From assembly GCF_006517175.1 (NCBI RefSeq), contig NZ_CP041186.1:3189074-3253073 (forward strand): 64,000 nucleotides of DNA. The letters are read 5' to 3'. The notes below the pieces were generated by a model. That model worked only from the letters and a program-made list of their open reading frames with translations. It was not told where the DNA came from and ran no database searches. Positions 2,665 through 44,786 of the stretch are shown piece after piece. Made by a program: the position numbers and the translations under genes. Positions within the stretch are counted from its first letter, which is position 1. Every line of letters starts with the position of its first letter. This DNA comes from Persicimonas caeni. Its GTDB lineage: Bacteria > Myxococcota_A > Bradymonadia > Bradymonadales > Bradymonadaceae.

Positions 2665-2916
2665 GGGCTATTTGGGCGGACAAACTACAATTTGGGGGTC
2701 GTTTTATTGGAACCGGGTTCCGATTCGCGGCCCTATTTGGGCGGACAAACTACAATTTGGGGGTCGTGGTTTTGAACGTGGTTCCGATTCGCGGCCCTAT
2801 TTGGGCGGACAAACTACAATTTGAGGGTCGCGTATCTGAACCACGTTCCAAAGATACGACCCTCAAATTGTAGTTTGTGCCCTCAAATAGCCGCCACGCA
2901 CCTGCAAGGCCGACAT
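2664..2916 (+). repeat. Palindromic element A with triplicated left arm, upstream of livH
   Basis: Three direct copies, 64-65 bp apart, carry the core GACAAACTACAATTTG (cores starting about 2676, 2741 and 2806). The third pairs with an inverted copy at 2855-2884 (CGACCCTCAAATTG then TAGTTTGTG) around a loop near 2834-2854. The 3' arm runs into the family tail (ATAGCCGCCACGCA then CCTGCAAGGCC, 2887-2912), which ends about 15 bp before the livH ATG. The whole lies between two genes of one operon, so it should be transcribed and fold into a long hairpin next to the livH ribosome-binding region. Confidence 0.85.
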
Positions 2917-2926
2917 CACATAGAAT

Positions 2927-3823
2927 ATGAGCTCATTCTTACAATTATTACTAGCCGGCCTCGCGCTGGGCTCGGTCTACGCGCTCGTCGCCCTGGGCTT
3001 CGTGGTCATCTACCGCGCCTCGCAGGTCTTCAACTTCGCGCAGGGCGAATTGCTGACCTTCGGCGCGTTCGCCATGCTCACGCTCTTGGGGCTGGGTATC
3101 CCGTGGTACGTCGCCGTGGCGGGCACGATGCTGATGACCGGCTTGCTAGGCGCGCTCATCGAGCGGGTCTTCTTGCGGCCGCTGGTCGGCCGGCCGGTCT
3201 TCGTGACGATCATCTTGACGATCTTCATCGGCTTTATCCTGCGCACGCTCATGCTCGTCTTTTGGGGCGCCGAGCCGCGCGGCATGCCCACGCCGTGGGA
3301 ATCGATGGCCGCCGTCGACATCGGCGGTGCGAGCATCCTGGTCAACTCGCTCGCCTCCATCGGAGCGGGCGTGCTGGCGCTGGGCGCCTTCTTCGTGCTC
3401 ATCAAATACACCCGGCTGGGCGTGAGCATGCGGGCGACGGCGAGTGACCAGGAAGTGTCGATGGCCCTGGGTATCCCGGTCGGCCGTATCCTCGGGGCGA
3501 CCTGGTTCATCTCGGGAGCCCTCGCCGCTCTGGGCGGAATCTTTCTGGGCATGTTCCCCCGAAGCGTCGACGTCCACCTGGGCTTCATAGCGCTGCGCGC
3601 CTTCCCGGCGGTCATCGTCGGCGGGCTGACGTCGGCGACCGGCGCGGTCGTCGCCGGCTTCGCCCTGGGCGTGCTCGAAGTGCTCACCCAAGGCTACGTC
3701 AACGAAATGCTCGGCGACTTCGGCCAGAATTTTCACACCGTCTTTCCATACATCGTCATGATCTTGTTTTTGATGGTGCGGCCGTACGGACTGTTCGGAG
3801 AAGAAGAGGTCGAGCGCGTGTAG
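2927..3823 (+). CDS. livH: LivH-type ABC transporter permease
   Basis: 298-aa inner-membrane permease, usual LivH length, with about eight hydrophobic segments. The N-terminal GLALGSVYALVALGFVVIYR stretch and the following FNFAQGELLTFGAF are the hallmark of LivH. It pairs with LivM to form the translocation channel and with LivG for energy. The ATG at 2927 has only a weak upstream purine site and lies 15 bp after the tail of a palindromic element, so translation may depend on how that RNA folds. livM follows after a 180-bp gap holding another inverted repeat. Confidence 0.93.
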   Translation: MSSFLQLLLAGLALGSVYALVALGFVVIYRASQVFNFAQGELLTFGAFAMLTLLGLGIPWYVAVAGTMLMTGLLGALIERVFLRPLVGRPVFVTIILTIFIGFILRTLMLVFWGAEPRGMPTPWESMAAVDIGGASILVNSLASIGAGVLALGAFFVLIKYTRLGVSMRATASDQEVSMALGIPVGRILGATWFISGALAALGGIFLGMFPRSVDVHLGFIALRAFPAVIVGGLTSATGAVVAGFALGVLEVLTQGYVNEMLGDFGQNFHTVFPYIVMILFLMVRPYGLFGEEEVERV

Positions 3824-4004: not shown

Positions 4005-5096
4005 ATGCCAACCAAGCAACTAGTCACATCCTACAAACAAGACCAAAAGCTCTTTCCCGACGTGTGGCACAAGATCGGGCTGAGCCTGGGCGTCATCGTC
4101 TGCCTGGCCTACCCGTTCTTGGCGGAAGGGCAGTGGCTGACGGTCGCCAACCTGGCGCTCATCGCGGTGGTGGGCGCGGTGGGCATGATGATTTTGACCG
4201 GGTTTGCCGGCCAGATTTCCCTGGGTCACGCGGCGTTTTTGGCCGTGGGCGCCTACACGGTGGGGACGCTCGGCGTGCACTGGCAGGTGCCGTTTTGGCT
4301 CGCCCTGCCCGCCGCGGGCGTCATCTCGGCGGTGGTGGGCCTGGCCATTGGTCCGTTCGCCTTGCGCCTGCGTGGGCTCTACCTGGCGATCGTCACGCTC
4401 GGTTTGCTGTTCTTGGTGGACCACGTCTTATTGGCGTTTCCCGAGCTGACCGGCGGGGTGAGCGGCATGTCGGTGCCGATGCACTCGTGGTTCGTGTCGG
4501 CCGAGGAGGCGTCGACCTTCGGCTCGTTCAGCGAGGCGTGGGAGGTGGGCGGATTCGAAATCAGCTTCGACCAAAAGCTCTACTTCTTGTTCCTGGCCAT
4601 CGCGGTCTTCGCCGCGTTCACCTCGAAGAATATCGCCCGCTCGAACTCGGGGCGCGCGATGGTGGCGGTGCGCGACCACGACCTGGCCGCCGCGGTGCTC
4701 GGTGTCGACCCGGGCAAGACCAAGATCATCGCCTTTGGCATCTCGTCGTTTTTCGCCGGCATCGCCGGCGCCATGTACGCCTTCCAGCAGCAGTACATCA
4801 CCGTCGACCCGTTCAACCTGGGCATGAGCGTCGAGTATATCGCCATCATCGTGCTCGGCGGCATCGGCACCACCTTCGGCGCCGTCGCCGGCGCGATTGC
4901 GTTCGTGGTGCTCGGGCCGCTGGCCGAGCTCGGCGGCGAGTATATCCCCTACTTCAACGAGCTTAGCGGCGGGCAGCAAGAGACGCTCTTGTTCGCCGGC
5001 ATCGTCATCGGCTTTTTGGTCTTCGAGCCGCTCGGCTTGTTCGGGATTTGGCTGCGGATCAAACGGTACTTTATGGCGTGGCCGTTTCGCTACTAA
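4005..5096 (+). CDS. livM: LivM-type ABC transporter permease
   Basis: 363-aa second permease of the branched-chain amino-acid ABC family. It has a cytosolic N-terminus (about 25 residues), then about ten hydrophobic segments. The motif GFAGQISLGHAAFLAVGAYT is the LivM signature, and GGIGTTFGAVAGA in the last third is also typical. It would form a heterodimer with LivH. No ATPase or binding-protein gene follows; a repeat array begins at the stop codon and the next gene is on the other strand, so the operon ends here. Confidence 0.93.
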   Translation: MPTKQLVTSYKQDQKLFPDVWHKIGLSLGVIVCLAYPFLAEGQWLTVANLALIAVVGAVGMMILTGFAGQISLGHAAFLAVGAYTVGTLGVHWQVPFWLALPAAGVISAVVGLAIGPFALRLRGLYLAIVTLGLLFLVDHVLLAFPELTGGVSGMSVPMHSWFVSAEEASTFGSFSEAWEVGGFEISFDQKLYFLFLAIAVFAAFTSKNIARSNSGRAMVAVRDHDLAAAVLGVDPGKTKIIAFGISSFFAGIAGAMYAFQQQYITVDPFNLGMSVEYIAIIVLGGIGTTFGAVAGAIAFVVLGPLAELGGEYIPYFNELSGGQQETLLFAGIVIGFLVFEPLGLFGIWLRIKRYFMAWPFRY

Positions 5097-5185
5097 CTTC
5101 GGTGTGAGGGCACCTTGCCCTCGTTACTTCGGTGCGAGGGTACCTTGCCCTCGTTATTTCGGTGCGAGGGCATCTTGCCTTCGTT
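5096..5185. repeat. Three tandem 30-bp palindromic units
   Basis: Three exact-length 30-bp units (5096-5125, 5126-5155, 5156-5185) of the form TTCGGTGCGAGGG then CACCTTGCCCTCGTT. Each contains an internal dyad (GAGGGCA/TGCCCTC) able to form a small hairpin. They start on the last base of livM and may act as its transcript end. The same unit in reverse orientation forms a second array at 5894-6006, so the two arrays bracket the lipoprotein gene. A short dyad GGCATGTTGC/GCAACGTGCC follows at 5186-5206. There are no spacers, so this is not CRISPR. Confidence 0.85.
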
Positions 5186-5893: not shown

Positions 5894-6006
5894 ACGAGGG
5901 CAAGATGCCCCGCACCGAAATGACGAGGGCAAGATGCCCCCGCACCGAAATGACGAGGGCAAGATGCCCACGCACCGATAGCCGAGGGCAAGATGCCCTC
6001 GCACCC
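5894..6006. repeat. Four units of the 30-bp palindromic repeat, inverted orientation
   Basis: About four 29-30-bp units (starts near 5894, 5923, 5953 and 5983) with core ACGAGGGCAAGATGCCC then CGCACCGAAATG. They are reverse complements of the units at 5096-5185. The last unit is truncated. A related core (CAGGGCATCTTGCCCTG) also appears at 40372-40388 at the edge of the second insertion sequence, so the unit is dispersed in the genome. Confidence 0.85.
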
Positions 6007-16363: not shown

Positions 16364-16720
16364 CGGCGTCGGTCGCGCCGATGGGCGTTTGGGCGGCGCG
16401 ACATACGCGTCGGTCGCGCCGACGGCCGTTTTGGCAATGTGTAGAGCCGCGTCGGTCGCTCCGACGACCGGTCGGTCGGGTGCGAGACGCGCCCCGGAGC
16501 GACCGACGCGCCTTTCTAAATCGCAGAACGCCCATCGGCGTGACCGACGCGCATGTCGCACTCGCCCACACGCCCGTCGGTCGCTCCGAGACGGCTTTTG
16601 CAAATGAAAAACGCCCGTCGGTCGCTCCGAGACGGCTTTTACAAATGAAAAACGCCCGTCGGTCGCTCCGAGACGGCTTTCGCAAATGAGAAACGCCCGT
16701 CGGAGCGACCGACGGGTGGT
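16364..16720. repeat. Degenerate GC-rich repeats with a 41-bp tandem array
   Basis: The 430-bp gap after cls contains many copies of the core CGTCGGTCGCTCCGA. At 16571-16712 the unit is regular with period 41 (unit starts 16571, 16612, 16653 and 16694) and includes ACGGCTTTTACAAATGAAAA. The last unit ends in the perfect dyad CCCGTCGG-AGCGA-CCGACGGG, which could terminate cls transcription. No gene is supported here; open frames are repeat artefacts. Confidence 0.8.
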
Positions 16721-20316: not shown

Positions 20317-20340
20317 TTACGCTCGAATTTTGTTGAAGCG

Positions 20341-20525
20341 CCTCAGCTTTCCGCGCTCTATTAGGGCAGACAAACTACGATTTGAGGGTTGCCATCCTGC
20401 ATAGCGATTGGTTCTTGAAGGCCGACGCTTGCACGGATCAACCCTGAAACGCCTCGCATCCCCGCGACCCTCAAATTGTAGTTTGTCCGTCCAAATAGCC
20501 GCCGCGAATCCTGAAGGCCGCACAA
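20341..20525 (+). repeat. Palindromic element B, upstream of the porin gene
   Basis: The left arm GACAAACTACGATTTGAGGG (20361-20380) is matched by an inverted right arm near 20467-20491 (GCGACCCTCAAATTG then TAGTTTGTCC). The arms are nearly the same sequence as in element A. The tail ATAGCCGCCGCG then AATCCTGAAGGCC (20498-20522) ends about 20 bp before the porin ATG. The loop is about 85 bp and holds an internal tail-like fragment (CTTGAAGGCCG). Confidence 0.85.
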
Positions 20526-20543: not shown

Positions 20544-21857
20544 ATGACATTCAAACGATTACTCACACTCGCCCTCATCGGCGCGTTGTGCACGGTTTCG
20601 ACGTCGGCCTTCGCCCAACAGGAAGAAGGTCTGCCGGGCCCAGACTACGAGTCTGACGCCCCCGAAGACGAAGACGTCGAGAGCGAGCTCGAAGCGCTCG
20701 AAGAGGAGGTTTACGACGAAGACGAAGACGCGTCCGATGCAGACAAGTCGGCTGCACGCGGCGCCGTGCAGTCGATGAACCCGGACATCTCGCTCATCTT
20801 GACCACCGCCGGCGCCTGGTTCTCCGACGAGCCCGACCTGCGCGGCGGCCACGACCCGCAGAATTTCGGGTTCAACCTGCAGGGGCTCGAGCTGGCCATC
20901 GGGGCCGACGTCGACCCGTTCTTTCGCTTCGACAGCGCCATTTTGTTCTCGCTGTTCGGCGTCGAGGTCGAGGAGGCCTACGGCACGACGCTGGCGCTCC
21001 CATACCAACTCCAGGCCCGCTTCGGCCAGTTCAAGACCCGCTTTGGCCGGCTCAACCCGACGCACCTGCACTCGTGGAGCTTCGTGACCCAGCCGCTGGT
21101 CAACGCCAAGTTTTTGGGCGGCGAGAGCCTGCGCGGATTGGGCGTCGAGCTGAGCCGGCTGGAGCTGTGGATGCCGGGCACTTTTCAATGGTACGTCGCC
21201 GTCCAGAACATCAACGGCGCGGCCACCGGCCGCTCGTTCATCCCCACCGAAGACGACATCGAAGGCCTGGACGACCTGACGCTGACGGTGCGCGCCGAGG
21301 AGTTCGTCGAGTTGTCCCCCGACTGGGACCTGCTCGTGGGCCTCAACTACGCCAACGGGCACAACAAGACCGGGCGCGACAACCGCACCGAGATCTACGG
21401 CGCCGACACCTACCTGCAGTGGAAATCACGCACCACCGGCGGCCGCAGCCAGGTCGGCTGGCAGACCGAGGCGATGCTTCGCCGCCGGCAGGTCCCCGGG
21501 GACGTGCTCGAGGATTTCGGGCTGAATAGCTGGCTCGAGTGGCACCTGAGCCGCTTCTGGGCCACCGCCCTTCGCTACGAGTACGTCACCGGCATCGACC
21601 CCGACGACGAAGGCGGCTTTCTATTCGCCGACGCCAACGACCTGGGAGCCATCGACCCGCTCGACCCCGACTGGACCGAGGCTCGCCAGCGCGGCGCGCT
21701 GCAACTGACGTACTACCCGTCGCACTTCTCGCGGCTGCGGCTGCAGTACAGCCTCGACTACCTGCCGTACCGCGGCGGCGAGCTCGACGACCTCGTTCAC
21801 ATGGTCTTTTTGCAGGCCGAAATCGTAGCAGGAGCCCATGGGACCCATGAATATTGA
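20544..21857 (+). CDS. Outer-membrane beta-barrel porin-like protein
   Basis: 437 aa. Signal peptide cleaved near SAFAQQ, then a very acidic segment (about residues 25-65), then a beta-barrel with repeated short amphipathic strands (FGFNLQGLELAIGADVDPFFRF, then strands ending in aromatic residues) and a terminal strand region VHMVFLQAEIVAG. The pattern resembles phosphate-selective-porin/OprP-type barrels. The acidic N-terminal stretch may attract divalent cations. Encoded in the zinc-uptake cluster, so it may pass zinc or zinc chelates through the outer membrane. Its 3' end overlaps the next lipoprotein gene by about 20 bp. Confidence 0.72.
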   Translation: MTFKRLLTLALIGALCTVSTSAFAQQEEGLPGPDYESDAPEDEDVESELEALEEEVYDEDEDASDADKSAARGAVQSMNPDISLILTTAGAWFSDEPDLRGGHDPQNFGFNLQGLELAIGADVDPFFRFDSAILFSLFGVEVEEAYGTTLALPYQLQARFGQFKTRFGRLNPTHLHSWSFVTQPLVNAKFLGGESLRGLGVELSRLELWMPGTFQWYVAVQNINGAATGRSFIPTEDDIEGLDDLTLTVRAEEFVELSPDWDLLVGLNYANGHNKTGRDNRTEIYGADTYLQWKSRTTGGRSQVGWQTEAMLRRRQVPGDVLEDFGLNSWLEWHLSRFWATALRYEYVTGIDPDDEGGFLFADANDLGAIDPLDPDWTEARQRGALQLTYYPSHFSRLRLQYSLDYLPYRGGELDDLVHMVFLQAEIVAGAHGTHEY

Positions 21858-22752
21858 GAGACAACACGAAATGGAGCGGAGTACAGAACCTGCAACGCCC
21901 TCTATTTGGGCATTTAAAGATTTAGGGGTTGCCCGGACACACCACTTCGCAGCCCTCAAATCCTTAGTTGCCCGAATAGCAGGCGCCTCGATTCCTGCAG
22001 GCCTACTCTTCGCATCGGCGCTATTTTTGACCGCCTGCACCGCCGAGGACGGCAACCCGTGGGGTTACGCCGAGGCCGAGCTGACGGTCGAGGAGCCGAC
22101 GGTCGGCGCCGCGTTCGAGGTCGAGTCGTTCGAGCTCGAGGTGAACACCGTGCGGCTGATTACCACGAGCACGACGAGCGCCGGCAGCGGCGAGTTCGAC
22201 CCGCAGAACCCACCGCCCGGCTGCAACTTGTGTCACGGCGGCCACTGCCACTGCGACGGCGAGCTCATCTCGTACGAAGATCTGCGCGCACAGGTGGCCA
22301 GCGGCGGGGGCACGAGCCAACGCGTAGTCGCCAATATCGACCCGAGCGAGGCGATCACCTCGGCCGGCACGGTGAGCCTGGGCGACGCGAGCATCGGTGA
22401 GCGCCTGGCGCTCGACACCGTCGAGCTCGAGCTCGCCGGGCTGCGCGTCGACGGCACGTTGACCCGTGACGGCCAAGAGATCCCGACGACGATGTCCCTG
22501 CCGGGCATCGCCGGCATGAAATTCTCGGCGCCGGCCACCATCGCGTTCGGCCCGGACGCCCCCGAAATGCAAAGCATGAATATCGCCCTCGACTGGAGGG
22601 ACGACTGGCTCCAGGTCGTCAACATCGACGAACTCGAGACCGGAGATAACGGAGAGATTGTCATCGCGAGCACCTCCAACCGCGGCCCGGCTGAGGCCAT
22701 TGTCGCAGCGATCGCCAATTCGTCGATCGCCGTGGAGGTCCATAGCGAGTGA
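21838..22752 (+). CDS. Metal-ligand lipoprotein with a repeat-derived N-terminus
   Basis: 304 aa from the ATG at 21838 (AGGAG close upstream); ATGs at 21847 and 21871 are alternatives. The signal peptide is unusually long: a palindromic element (21898-22003) is translated as WAFKDLGVARTHHFAALKS and onwards into AGASIPAG before the hydrophobic core LLFASALFLTAC with its lipobox. No start codon lies between the element and the lipobox in frame, so the element must be translated. The mature part has a Cys/His cluster CNLCHGGHCHCDGE (about 125-140) that looks like a metal site, then beta-rich sequence. Likely an outer-membrane-anchored zinc carrier; function inferred from the cluster. Confidence 0.78.
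   Translation: MGPMNIERQHEMERSTEPATPSIWAFKDLGVARTHHFAALKSLVARIAGASIPAGLLFASALFLTACTAEDGNPWGYAEAELTVEEPTVGAAFEVESFELEVNTVRLITTSTTSAGSGEFDPQNPPPGCNLCHGGHCHCDGELISYEDLRAQVASGGGTSQRVVANIDPSEAITSAGTVSLGDASIGERLALDTVELELAGLRVDGTLTRDGQEIPTTMSLPGIAGMKFSAPATIAFGPDAPEMQSMNIALDWRDDWLQVVNIDELETGDNGEIVIASTSNRGPAEAIVAAIANSSIAVEVHSE
21898..22003 (+). repeat. Palindromic element C, inside a lipoprotein gene
   Basis: Left arm about 21901-21934 (ATTTGGGCATTTAAAG then ATTTAGGGGTTGC) and right arm 21949-21984 (GCAGCCCTCAAATCC then TTAGTTGCCCGAATAGC) are imperfect reverse complements around a roughly 14-base loop. The tail AGCAGGCGCCTCG then ATTCCTGCAGGCC follows to 22003. The element is wholly within coding sequence and keeps the frame open. 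Confidence 0.88.
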
Positions 22753-22886
22753 AGTTGCCTCGATTCAGAGGCGGATGAGGCCCCGACAACCACCGGCAAG
22801 TGAGCAGTCGGAGCGCTCATCACACGCCCGCCTTCATGAGGAAGGCGAGCGATTAGCCCCACACAGCATAGTAGGAGAAGCTACAG

Positions 22887-23501
22887 ATGAAAACGCGAAT
22901 GCTTATTGGACGCTTGGGACTGATTCTCGTGGTCGGCGGACTCGCTCTGGCCGGCTCGGCCTGCGGCGATCACGACCACGATCACGAGCACGACAACAAC
23001 GCCCACCAAGAAGAAGAACTGCCGCCCGATCACGCCTGCGAGCACGCCCAGAACGGGCCGTTCGTGCCCGAAAACGGCACCCTGCAAGCCGCGGCCGAGT
23101 CGACCGGCGACCTGCCGGTGATCCACCACGGCGAGTGGTCGACGATCACGCTGACCGACGACGACGGCGACGGCGCCTACGAGGGTTTCGTGACCTTCGA
23201 GGCCAAGAAAGACGGCGGACATCGCTTCTTTACGAGCGTGGCCTGGGCCGGTGAAGACGGCGAGTCGACGACTGATCCGTATATCGTCGTCACCGCCCCC
23301 GACGGCGCCACCGACCCGACCTTCGAGAAGAAGCACCCGGTCGGCGACGATCCCGGCTGCGTCGAGGTCAACTTCAACCACTTCTACGAAGGCTTCGCCG
23401 CCGGCACCAGCTACCTGGTCGAGATCTCGGGTCACCCCGAGGAGACGATCGCGATCGTGCCGGTCCCCGAAGGCGAAGGCGACCACGACCACGACCATTG
23501 A
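22887..23501 (+). CDS. His-rich zinc-binding lipoprotein
   Basis: 204 aa. Signal peptide with lipobox GSAC (Cys 26), followed at once by a His/Asp cluster (GDHDHDHEHDNNAH) and ended by a second one (GDHDHDH). The body has a beta-sandwich-like composition (EWSTITLTDDDGDGAYEGF, then CVEVNFNHFYEGF). Twin His/Asp tails suggest reversible zinc binding in the periplasm, feeding the ZnuA encoded next. AGGAG lies nine bases before the ATG. Upstream (22753-22886) are only small dyads, for example GCCTTC-ATGAG-GAAGGC. Confidence 0.8.
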   Translation: MKTRMLIGRLGLILVVGGLALAGSACGDHDHDHEHDNNAHQEEELPPDHACEHAQNGPFVPENGTLQAAAESTGDLPVIHHGEWSTITLTDDDGDGAYEGFVTFEAKKDGGHRFFTSVAWAGEDGESTTDPYIVVTAPDGATDPTFEKKHPVGDDPGCVEVNFNHFYEGFAAGTSYLVEISGHPEETIAIVPVPEGEGDHDHDH

Positions 23502-23507
23502 TTTTTT

Positions 23508-23538
23508 GTCGCCGGCGGCCCCGGAGGCCGCCGGCGAC
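23508..23538 (+). other. GC-rich hairpin between the His-rich lipoprotein and znuA
   Basis: Perfect 13-bp stem GTCGCCGGCGGCC / GGCCGCCGGCGAC with a 5-base loop (CCGGA), just after a TTTTTT run and six bases before the znuA ribosome-binding site GGAGG. It could reduce read-through or shield the upstream mRNA, giving more lipoprotein than ZnuA. Confidence 0.65.
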
Positions 23539-23554
23539 TTATTTGGAGGACGAT

Positions 23555-24598
23555 ATGAGACGTTTACGCGAACATTCCACGCCCTCTACATGGGCATCTA
23601 AGGACATAGGGGCTGCCCGGACGCAGCGTCTCGCAACCCCTATGTCCTTAATTGCTTATGTAGCAGGCGCCTCGCTTCCTGCAGGCCCCCTCATCACCGT
23701 CGCAACACTTCTGCTGGCCTTGCTGCTGCCGCAGACCGCGATGGCCAAGGTCGACATCGTCACCACCGTCGGCGACCTCGCCGCGGTGGCCAAAGAAGTC
23801 GGCGGCGAGCACGTCTCGGTCGAATTGTTGGCGAGTCCGCAGCAGGACCCGCACTTTGTCGACGCCAAGCCGAGCTTTGTGCGCGACGTCGCCAAGGCCG
23901 ACCTGCTCATCGTCAACGGCATGAGCCTCGAGGCGGGCTGGTTGCCCGCGCTGGTCGAGAGTTCGCGCAACGCCAAGGTGCAAATAGGCGCCGACGGCTA
24001 CTTCGACGCCTCCGAGCATATCGCGCGCAAGGGCGTCCCCCAGGGCGAAATCAGCCGCGCCCAGGGCGACGTCCACCCCGAGGGCAACCCGCACTACACC
24101 CTCGAGCCGCGCCAGATGGCCCGCGTGGCCCTCGCGTTGGGCAAGCGCCTGGCCAAGCTCGATCCCGACCACGCCAAGGCGTACAAAACCCAGGCGAAAG
24201 CCTTCGCCAAAAAGGGACTGCAGACGGCGAAATATTGGAAAAAGCAGTTCGAATCGCTGCCCAAACAATGCCGCAATGTGGTCGTCTACCACGAAGCCTG
24301 GGTCTACCTGACCGACTGGCTGTCGCTGAACGTGGTGCTGCCCATCGAGCCCAAGCCGGGCGTGCCGCCCAACCCCAAGCATGTCGCCAAGGTTTTCAAG
24401 ACGATGAAGTCCGAGGAGGTTCCCGTGGTCATCCAAATGGAGTATTACCCGAACTCGAATACCGAGATGATCACCAAGAAGACCGGCGCCTACCTGCTCA
24501 TCGTTCAGGGCCAGACCCGCGAGGACCAGGACTACTTTTCGCGCGTCAACAAGATGGCCGGCGAGCTGTATTCAGCCGTGAAGGCCAGATGTGAGTGA
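23555..24598 (+). CDS. znuA: ZnuA-type zinc-binding protein with a repeat-derived signal region
   Basis: 347-aa cluster-A-I substrate-binding protein. Zinc ligands are recognisable: His in QQDPHFVD, His in GNPHYTLEP and His in VVYHEAW, plus a C-terminal acidic site. No long His-rich loop is present. The ATG at 23555 has an excellent GGAGG five bases upstream. The first about 45 residues come from a palindromic element translated as WASKDIGAARTQRLATPMS and then AGASLPAG, before the hydrophobic core and cleavage at QTAMA. An internal ATG inside the element (at Met of TPMS) would give a signal peptide without a basic n-region, so the upstream start is favoured. Overlaps znuC by 8 bp. Confidence 0.9.
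   Translation: MRRLREHSTPSTWASKDIGAARTQRLATPMSLIAYVAGASLPAGPLITVATLLLALLLPQTAMAKVDIVTTVGDLAAVAKEVGGEHVSVELLASPQQDPHFVDAKPSFVRDVAKADLLIVNGMSLEAGWLPALVESSRNAKVQIGADGYFDASEHIARKGVPQGEISRAQGDVHPEGNPHYTLEPRQMARVALALGKRLAKLDPDHAKAYKTQAKAFAKKGLQTAKYWKKQFESLPKQCRNVVVYHEAWVYLTDWLSLNVVLPIEPKPGVPPNPKHVAKVFKTMKSEEVPVVIQMEYYPNSNTEMITKKTGAYLLIVQGQTREDQDYFSRVNKMAGELYSAVKARCE
23579..23690 (+). repeat. Palindromic element D, inside znuA
   Basis: Left arm about 23582-23615 (TACATGGGCATCTAAGG then ACATAGGGGCTGC) pairs with a right arm at 23631-23666 (GCAACCCCTATGTCC then TTAATTGCTTATGTAGC) around a 15-base loop. Tail AGCAGGCGCCTCG then CTTCCTGCAGGCC follows to about 23690. Compared with element C, the inner stem changes TTT/AAA to CAT/ATG on both arms, which keeps pairing. 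Confidence 0.9.
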
Positions 24599-25253
24599 TT
24601 CGATGATGCTGCTGACAACCCAAAACCTCGAGGTCGGCTACGACAAGACGCTGCTCGGGCCGATGGATCTGGACTTCGAGCCGGGGCATTTCGTGCTCGT
24701 CGAAGGACCTAACGGCATCGGCAAGTCGACGCTGCTCCACACATTTATGGGCCTGCTCGAACCCATCCGCGGCTCCTACGAGTGGTCGGTGCCCCAGAGT
24801 GAGCTGCGGTTCGTGCCCCAGACTCGCACCCTCGACGTGCTCTTGCCCGCGACCGTCAACGACGTGATGGGCACCGGGTTCCAGCGTGGCTCGGGCTGGC
24901 AGGCGCTGCGAAGCTCGCCGAATAAGGCCGACATCAAGAGAGCGCTCGAGATGGTCGAGATGGATCGATTTCGCCACCATCTATTTCGCGAGCTGTCCGA
25001 GGGCCAAAAGCAGCTCGTCCTGCTCGGCCGCGCGTTGTTGGGCGACCCGTCGGTGCTCATCCTCGACGAGCCGTCGGCCTCGATGGACCCCGAGCGCGAG
25101 CAACTCGCCGTCGAAATCTTGGTGCGCCAGCGCAACGAGTTCGGCCGCACGATCTTTATGATCGCCCACGGCAGCCAGCCCGCCCAAGCCGCCTCTGACT
25201 GCACCCTGCGTATCTACCGCGATCGAACCGTCCACCTGGAGAAGTGCTCATGA
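24591..25253 (+). CDS. znuC: ZnuC-type ABC transporter ATPase
   Basis: 220-aa ATPase of the zinc importer. Walker A GPNGIGKST (about residues 43-51), Q-loop FVPQ, signature LSEGQKQLVLLGRAL (about 140), Walker B VLILDEPSASMD and switch His in IAHGS. Start is GTG at 24591, overlapping the znuA stop; an ATG four codons on (24603) is possible. Ends overlapping the znuB ATG (ATGA), so znuACB is translationally coupled. Confidence 0.9.
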   Translation: MSDSMMLLTTQNLEVGYDKTLLGPMDLDFEPGHFVLVEGPNGIGKSTLLHTFMGLLEPIRGSYEWSVPQSELRFVPQTRTLDVLLPATVNDVMGTGFQRGSGWQALRSSPNKADIKRALEMVEMDRFRHHLFRELSEGQKQLVLLGRALLGDPSVLILDEPSASMDPEREQLAVEILVRQRNEFGRTIFMIAHGSQPAQAASDCTLRIYRDRTVHLEKCS

Positions 25254-31590: not shown

Positions 31591-31754
31591 GGGGCCTCTC
31601 CCTCGATCCCTCTCCTTCCCTTCGCTTCGCTACGGGTGGAGAGGGGGTTTGGGCCTCTCCCTCGATCCCTCTCCTTCCCTTCGCTTCGCTACGGGTGGAG
31701 AGGGGGCCTCTCCTCGGTCCTCTCCTTCCCTTCGCTTCGCTACGGGCGGAGAGG
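31591..31754. repeat. Three direct repeats of about 55-59 bp
   Basis: Copies start near 31595, 31654 and 31707 and contain CCTCTCCCTCGATCC and CCCTTCGCTTCGCTACGGG. Each copy holds a dyad (CCTCTCC / GGAGAGG) so it can fold into a hairpin. They follow the MATE stop and may act as a transcript end. Confidence 0.8.
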
Positions 31755-31804
31755 AAGATGTCGTTCGATCGATCTCTGTACAAGGTGCGCTGCAGCAACA
31801 TCTT

Positions 31805-31885
31805 CCTCCCCTGCGCGAAGCAACGCGTAGCGTAGGGGAGGACCGAGGAGGGGACTCCTCCTCCGCGCAGCGAAGCGAAGTGGAG
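31805..31885. repeat. Partial copy of the 109-bp GC-rich repeat (left of IS)
   Basis: CTCCCCTGCGCGAAGC to GCAGCGAAGCGAAGTGGAG matches the units at 33541-33758 on the other side of the insertion sequence. It has the internal palindrome CCTCCCCT...AGGGGAGG. The element between was therefore inserted into, or adjacent to, a pre-existing repeat array. Confidence 0.75.
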
Positions 31886-33444: not shown

Positions 33445-33540
33445 CTCGGATCTCCTTGTTGCCCCTTCGTTCCATGAAACTAACAATCGAAGAGGCGACA
33501 ACTATCCTGACACCTGGGGGGAGGAGGACCGAGGAGGAGG

Positions 33541-33758
33541 CCGCCTTTCCTCCTCCCCTGCGCGAAGCACAGCGGAGCGTAGGGGAGGACCGAGGAGGGG
33601 ACTCCTCCTCCGCGCAGCGAAGCGAAGTGGAGGAGGACCGAGGAGGAGGCCGCCTTTCCTCCTCCCCTGCGCGAAGCACAGCGGAGCGTAGGGGAGGACC
33701 GAGGAGGGGACTCCTCCTCCGCGCAGCGAAGCGAAGTGGAGGAGGACCGAGGAGGAGG
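33541..33758. repeat. Two 109-bp GC-rich repeats (right of IS)
   Basis: Two nearly identical 109-bp units (33541-33649 and 33650-33758) containing CTCCCCTGCGCGAAGC and GCAGCGAAGCGAAGTGG, each with a strong internal palindrome. A third, incomplete unit lies on the left side of the IS. Open frames in this stretch are repeat artefacts. Confidence 0.88.
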
Positions 33759-42045: not shown

Positions 42046-42119
42046 AAGATGGCGAAACTCTAGAATAGCAGGCGCCTCGAATTCTGCAAGGCCTCACATT
42101 ATCCCACACCCAACCACAC

Positions 42120-44637: not shown

Positions 44638-44716
44638 TTTGGTGTGACTAAGGGAAACTAAGCCGTTCGCTTCGCTCACTGGTTACTAAGGGTCACTACG
44701 AGCAACTGAGCGGCCC

Positions 44717-44776
44717 AGTCACCCTTAGTCACCCTTAGTCACCCTTAGTCACCCTCAGTCACCCTTAGTCACCCTT
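44717..44776 (+). repeat. Six 10-bp tandem repeats before gpsA
   Basis: Six perfect or near-perfect AGTCACCCTT units (44717-44776), ending 10 bp before the ATG. Upstream ACTAAGGGTCACT (44686-44698) is complementary to the units and can pair with them. The repeats are followed by AGG and an eight-A run that includes the A of the start codon. Number changes by slippage would alter the leader of the gene. Confidence 0.88.
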
Positions 44777-44786
44777 AGGAAAAAAA

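Follow-up and report, generated by a model that had tools for sequence, protein, structure and literature searches.

Results

Two palindromes in the signal-peptide coding regions of a zinc-uptake operon

Two copies of a dispersed palindromic repeat, elements C and D, lie within the 5′ coding ends of a lipoprotein gene and of znuA in a zinc-uptake operon, where they are almost certainly translated as extra residues ahead of the export signals. As a whole, the explanation that we consider probable is that sister palindromes associated with a REP-associated tyrosine transposase (RAYT) inserted into two signal peptides, are translated and are tolerated. The operon lies in the window, the 64,000-nucleotide stretch that was analyzed (C1:3189074-3253073), from the single-contig genome (8,047,206 bp, ~8.05 Mb) of this predatory bacterium. 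Positions below are those of the window unless given as genome positions, and the operon genes and both elements are on the + strand.

The upstream gene of the operon is porin-like (20544..21857) and matches the BBP2 beta-barrel porin family (PF07642) weakly, at 17.6 bits, below the cut-off. It is followed by the lipoprotein gene (21838..22752), which carries element C, a lipobox Cys codon at 22036 and a CHGGHCHC motif. A gene for a His/Asp-rich putative lipoprotein (22887..23501), which gave no match in a family search, stands between the two element-bearing genes and has no element itself. Next come znuA (23555..24598), whose product, the substrate-binding protein of a zinc ABC transporter, matches PF01297 at 178 bits from residue 68 onward, and a znuC-like ABC transporter ATPase gene (24591..25253; PF00005, AztA/ZnuC-type matches).

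Element C (~21878..22003) is an ATTT-type palindrome that scores 88.8 bits with covariance model R1 and encodes ...PSIWAFKDLGVARTHHFAALKSLVARIAGASIPAG; element D (~23562..23687) is of ACAT type, scores 92.3 bits and encodes ...PSTWASKDIGAARTQRLATPMSLIAYVAGASLPAG. The two align without gaps over 126 nt at 76% identity and are read in one common frame, each running up to a hydrophobic core, in agreement with the coordinates, peptides and frame in the initial annotation. That annotation had placed an AGAS-PAG segment ahead of the core; the order stands, with the addition that AGAS-PAG is itself the outer arm of the element (GGCGCCTCG.TTCCTGCAGGCC) and not host sequence, so that the element reaches the edge of the hydrophobic core. 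By hydropathy, the cores themselves (LITVATLLLALL and AGLLFASALFL) are essentially outside the element.

In both C and D the loop is shortened to 16 nt, 7 nt below the standard, with the bases CCGGAC in common, and among the intact copies listed this loop is found in these two only. Because the deletion is common to both and present in no other intact copy listed, we read C and D as sister copies and not as independent events. Element C has an intact right arm and a degenerate left 10-nt terminus; since neither C nor D matches the 10-nt end of the family on the left, their exact insertion junction cannot be placed. A copy at genome position 3300109 with an equally short core was considered as a relative and rejected, being a multiplied, rearranged copy.

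It is unlikely, in our estimate, that the element inserted once and that a whole 5′ gene segment with its start codon was then copied from one of the two genes to the other by gene conversion or duplication. Such copying would account for the shortened loop and degenerate left end common to both copies and for the identical spacing of 31 nt by which ATG 21871 and ATG 23555 each precede the CTA anchor in the arm. However, the similar stretch reaches only as far as GAAC, 15 nt past the ATGs, the Shine-Dalgarno (SD) regions and hydrophobic cores are unlike, and ATG 21871 is one of three candidate starts of the C-bearing gene. Two insertions from one lineage are the more likely reading, since the similarity ends where the element ends.

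Signal peptides with and without the insert

ZnuA orthologues were found in 36 genomes. The great majority align only past the insert, and the signal peptides of those that read through are ordinary ones. The nearest orthologue (G008, 60% identical) begins with MKHILIIAAVFALFFAPNRADA-KVKIV and has an ordinary 22-residue signal peptide that lacks an insert, and a ZnuA paralogue in the same genome (58% identical, C1:5664994-5665881, locus L092) begins with MNARKMILPTVALLLVILIPDLAAA-KVKVV and likewise has a short ordinary signal peptide free of the insert, so that it too aligns only past the insert. Set against the orthologues, D separates the native ZnuA n-region, MRR(LR), from the h-region PLITVATLLLALLLPQTAMA. 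Orthologues of the lipoprotein keep the lipobox region in an ordinary signal peptide that has no insert, and the Cys is followed by a stretch of the type (E/D)-x-G-x-(P/S)-(W/F)-G.

By these comparisons, the palindromes split signal peptides between their n- and h-regions. The initial annotation had proposed a comparison of orthologues with and without the insert, and what it returned is orthologues that lack the insert, together with a repeat family elsewhere in the genome; the refuting outcome that it had named, distant orthologues sharing the N-terminus and no repeat family elsewhere, was not seen. No empty insertion site from a close relative was found, the nearest ZnuA being 60% identical.

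Gene starts and probable translation of the inserts

The lipoprotein gene has three candidate ATG starts, at 21838 (AGGAG at only 3 nt), 21847 and 21871 (weak SD). From element C to the lipobox Cys, the sole ATG, GTG or TTG is TTG 22027, which at three codons ahead of the Cys is useless as the start of a signal peptide. Because nothing from the element to Cys 22036 can serve as a start, a point of the initial annotation that our scan upholds, we infer that the gene, if active, must be translated through C; that it is active is argued by its ORF, codon bias and conserved motifs.

For znuA, GGAGG (23545-23549) stands 5 nt before ATG 23555, and this SD and start (23545..23557) are both upstream of element D, as had been claimed. 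ATG 23555 is most likely the native start, since the closest orthologue has the same spacing (TGGAG-6 nt-ATG). Further evidence comes from the family itself: where D has TGG, 56 of 59 ACAT-type arms carry a stop codon; D is one of the three arms without it, and this escape suggests that only an open copy could persist at this site. Translation of D as part of ZnuA is strongly indicated by these features of the sequence. The openness of C says little on coding because C is of the ATTT type, which is open by nature; intergenic copies of this type also have the same frame open, owing to their composition. An open frame as such was consequently rejected as proof of coding, and only the escape of D is informative.

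We consider it quite unlikely that the elements are ordinary 5′-untranslated or intergenic palindromes behind mis-called starts, with the lipoprotein translated from a non-standard codon and ZnuA from ATG 23642, an internal start that was absent from the initial annotation. This codon is in frame within D and would bypass most of the insert, giving a shorter signal peptide, MSLIAYVAGASLPAGPLITVATLLLALLLPQTAMA; the codons of the element are atypical; and Di Nocera et al. 2013 (PMC3733652) warn that N-terminal coding REPs may mostly be extragenic, made coding by misannotation. ATG 23642 nevertheless has no SD and lies within a stable hairpin arm, and this reading must also contend with the SD and conserved spacing at ATG 23555, the stop that D avoids and the lack, from C to the lipobox, of any common start codon but TTG 22027.

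Comparison of C with D gave a dN/dS of 0.69 in the gene frame and of 0.56 and 0.73 in the other frames, and protein-level selection on the insert was rejected because the value of ~0.7 is similar in unused frames. In simulations, chance alone keeps the frame free of stops through the observed divergence in 44-46% of runs. With dN/dS similar across frames and chance survival this frequent, the insert peptide appears to be tolerated rather than selected.

It is very unlikely that the palindrome is a functional, selected addition, whether as an extended signal-peptide region or as an mRNA hairpin that tunes how the operon is expressed or its products are exported. In favor of this, it stands at the same place and in the same frame in two genes of the operon, hairpins of -57 kcal/mol (C, z -5.2) and -69 kcal/mol (D, z -6.0) are predicted from ~25 nt past the start codon, and REPs have been described as plausible RNA elements (Di Nocera et al.); against it, codon-level constraint is absent, stop-free survival is common in simulation, C and D are sisters and no orthologue has anything comparable. 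The mRNA hairpins of C and D might, from the folding predictions, modulate translation. That the translated palindrome now works as an extended signal-peptide region or translational hairpin common to two zinc-uptake proteins is more doubtful still; if it did, a transposable repeat would co-regulate export or expression of the zinc-uptake operon. Type V secreted proteins have an extended signal peptide region (ESPR), which is a conserved protein motif. C and D resemble it in placing a long N-terminal extension before a standard n/h/c signal peptide and differ from it in being repeat DNA that shows no conservation, and the comparison is an analogy only.

A species-specific palindrome family

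Searches with D as the query found 102 matching pieces in the genome, and covariance model R1 gave at least 111 matches on the two strands, with 150 of 2001 candidates scored; together they point to at least ~57-65 copies genome-wide. For the 36-nt arm common to C and D, zero matches are expected in shuffled sequence. The family consensus is a near-perfect palindrome of ~134 bp, GGCCTTGCAG-n14-CTACATAAGCAATTAAGGACATAGGGGTTGCGA-loop-(inverse), in two subtypes, ACAT and ATTT, distinguished by paired changes on both arms. The ends of the element form an inverted pair (GGCCTTGCAG/CTGCAAGGCC), but no sharp edge marks them: conservation by column fades gradually, and the flanking bases are not constant. 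Readings of the elements as attC sites and as DDE-type MITEs were considered; there is no cassette array for the former, and sharp ends are missing for the latter. The family was found in none of 57 related genomes searched, and an exact 21-mer search found no match in ~85,000 species genomes, a set from which own or near records may have been excluded.

Nearly all copies are intergenic or merely touch a gene end, as judged with a gene caller based on codon usage. In 40 tandem gene pairs, copies lie a median of 30 bp from the stop on the upstream side and 131 bp from the start on the downstream side (Wilcoxon p 0.001), and in 28 of these pairs the copy is nearer the upstream stop than the next start. 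C and D keep to this ordinary position, 20-60 nt past the preceding stop: C begins ~20 nt past the stop codon of the porin-like gene (21857) and D ~60 nt past that of its neighbor. Their unusual feature is that the start codon of the downstream gene precedes the element.

Among the copies listed, C and D alone, of ~60-65, are fused to the N-terminus of a real gene. Other tblastn matches of the element peptide were checked in context and none is fused to a true gene start; a third lipoprotein match in the genome (5562479), considered as a further fusion, was rejected as an intergenic copy after a permease gene. The view in the initial annotation that a mobile or duplicating palindrome, loosely like Rickettsia palindromic elements (RPEs), has entered the signal regions of two exported proteins is supported by a family of ~60-65 copies, and its suggestion that the element is targeted to signal peptides is not supported: only two of ~65 copies are involved, these are sisters in one operon at an ordinary family position, there is no sign of protein-level selection, and the count of gene starts with the element peptide, among copies listed, does not go beyond C and D.

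Near-identical 146-nt copies at genome positions 7588, 381540, 533042, 5326804 and 5559226 have a rearranged outer block (GAACTGCGGGCG). Recent spread, or spread together with a larger repeat, may account for this subset.

Association with a RAYT gene

A Y1_Tnp/IS200-like RAYT gene at genome positions 4646506-4646991 encodes 162 aa, including a YIxxQKxHH stretch, and has on either side a 207-nt repeat that bears the arms of the element; the two repeats are 96% alike. These repeats are at genome 4646274-4646480 and 4647159-4647365 (L159:1979-2185 and 2864-3070), and the arms in them are inside-out relative to the dispersed copies, as in tail-tail versus head-head REP dimers. GTAG is at the foot of 60 of 106 arms, with ATAG or TTAG in 30 more. 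The outer 28 nt of the arms fold better than the flanks (median -2.7 vs -0.7 kcal/mol), with a stem that is not uniform, and the small terminal hairpin of the elements is weak. Judged from genomic position, the family very probably depends on the RAYT for its mobility.

A RAYT paralogue at genome position 668084 (L218; 51% identical) is bracketed by a different palindrome family, CTATTTGGGCGGACAAACTACAATTTGGGGGTCG, and a third RAYT in the genome comes with 195-nt repeats of its own. Each palindrome family in this genome may have its own RAYT paralogue. The genome provides at least two RAYT/palindrome pairs outside the well-studied gamma-proteobacteria.

Discussion

In our preferred reading, C and D are sister copies of a species-specific, GTAG-tagged, RAYT-associated element of ~134 bp that resembles REP dimers and MITEs. 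The RAYT (HUH/Y1, acting on single strands and making no target duplication) would be the mover, and the second copy would derive from the first or both from one shortened copy. The family as a rule occupies intergenic DNA just 3′ of stops, and here the next start is so close that the palindrome falls in the 5′ coding end of the downstream gene. Translation would then give an n-region longer by ~40 residues. The h- and c-regions, being intact, would still be recognized by the Sec machinery and by signal peptidases I and II, and the insert would be cleaved off with the signal peptide, leaving mature ZnuA and lipoprotein unaltered. Its persistence would reflect tolerance, not benefit. Signal peptides may act as safe harbors for insertions, given that cleavage would remove the insert and that an n-region seems able to bear ~40 extra residues.

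Known systems offer several precedents. REPs are mostly downstream of coding regions, are occasionally found in genes where they encode residues, and have RAYT genes flanked by repeats (Di Nocera et al. 2013, PMC3733652). Our family resembles the GTAG REPs, their HH/TT dimers and the RAYT REPtrons/TIRtrons in its paired palindromes, GTAG foot, location mostly 3′ of genes, repeat-flanked RAYT and occasional in-gene copies, but it forms one long-armed palindrome of ~134 bp with a weak small REP hairpin, keeps GTAG in 57% and is species-specific within the Bradymonadales. In Yersinia, an RU-2 element is part of the predicted signal peptide of YPO1552, a putative exported protein, and the signal sequences of its homologues are free of RU-2 (Delihas 2007, PMC2759123). 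ERIC/RU-1 and RU-2 are likewise intergenic MITE-like palindromes (127-168 bp) with in-frame fusions; they are unrelated in sequence, and the insert described here is in two phylogenetically conserved genes, ZnuA and the operon lipoprotein. RPEs, with 44 integrations in R. conorii of which nearly half are in ORFs (review PMC10969869), share the palindromic form (100-150 bp) and in-frame translation within conserved genes. They differ in being frequent in genes and at many protein positions, whereas here two of ~65 copies are coding, both N-terminal; as for sequence, the exact 21-mer search of ~85,000 species genomes gave no match.

The arrangement is thus a clean new case of a known but seldom documented kind, with REPs inside genes, RPEs and Yersinia RU-2 as precedents, and is not a signal-peptide-targeting system. 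What is new is the involvement of two conserved genes, the split between n- and h-regions, the visible uninserted state and the RAYT linkage in this lineage. As a natural example of conserved signal peptides split by a RAYT-type palindrome it is unusually clean, with the uninserted state present both in orthologues and in a paralogue of the same genome.

Other repeats in the window

A lone outer-arm fragment (TAGCAGGCGCCTCGAATTCTGCAAGG) that forms no palindrome is located at 42066-42099 and is possibly a decayed half element. The CTATTTGGGCGGACAAACTACAATTTGGGGGTCG palindrome family also occurs in the window, at 2642-2892 and 20332-20510. Other short inverted or tandem repeats are at 5094-5184, 5923-5978, 16487-16703, 31592-31860, 33520-33737 and 44707-44786, and include three 41-nt units, two identical tandem 109-nt units and an array of the decamer AGTCACCCTT.
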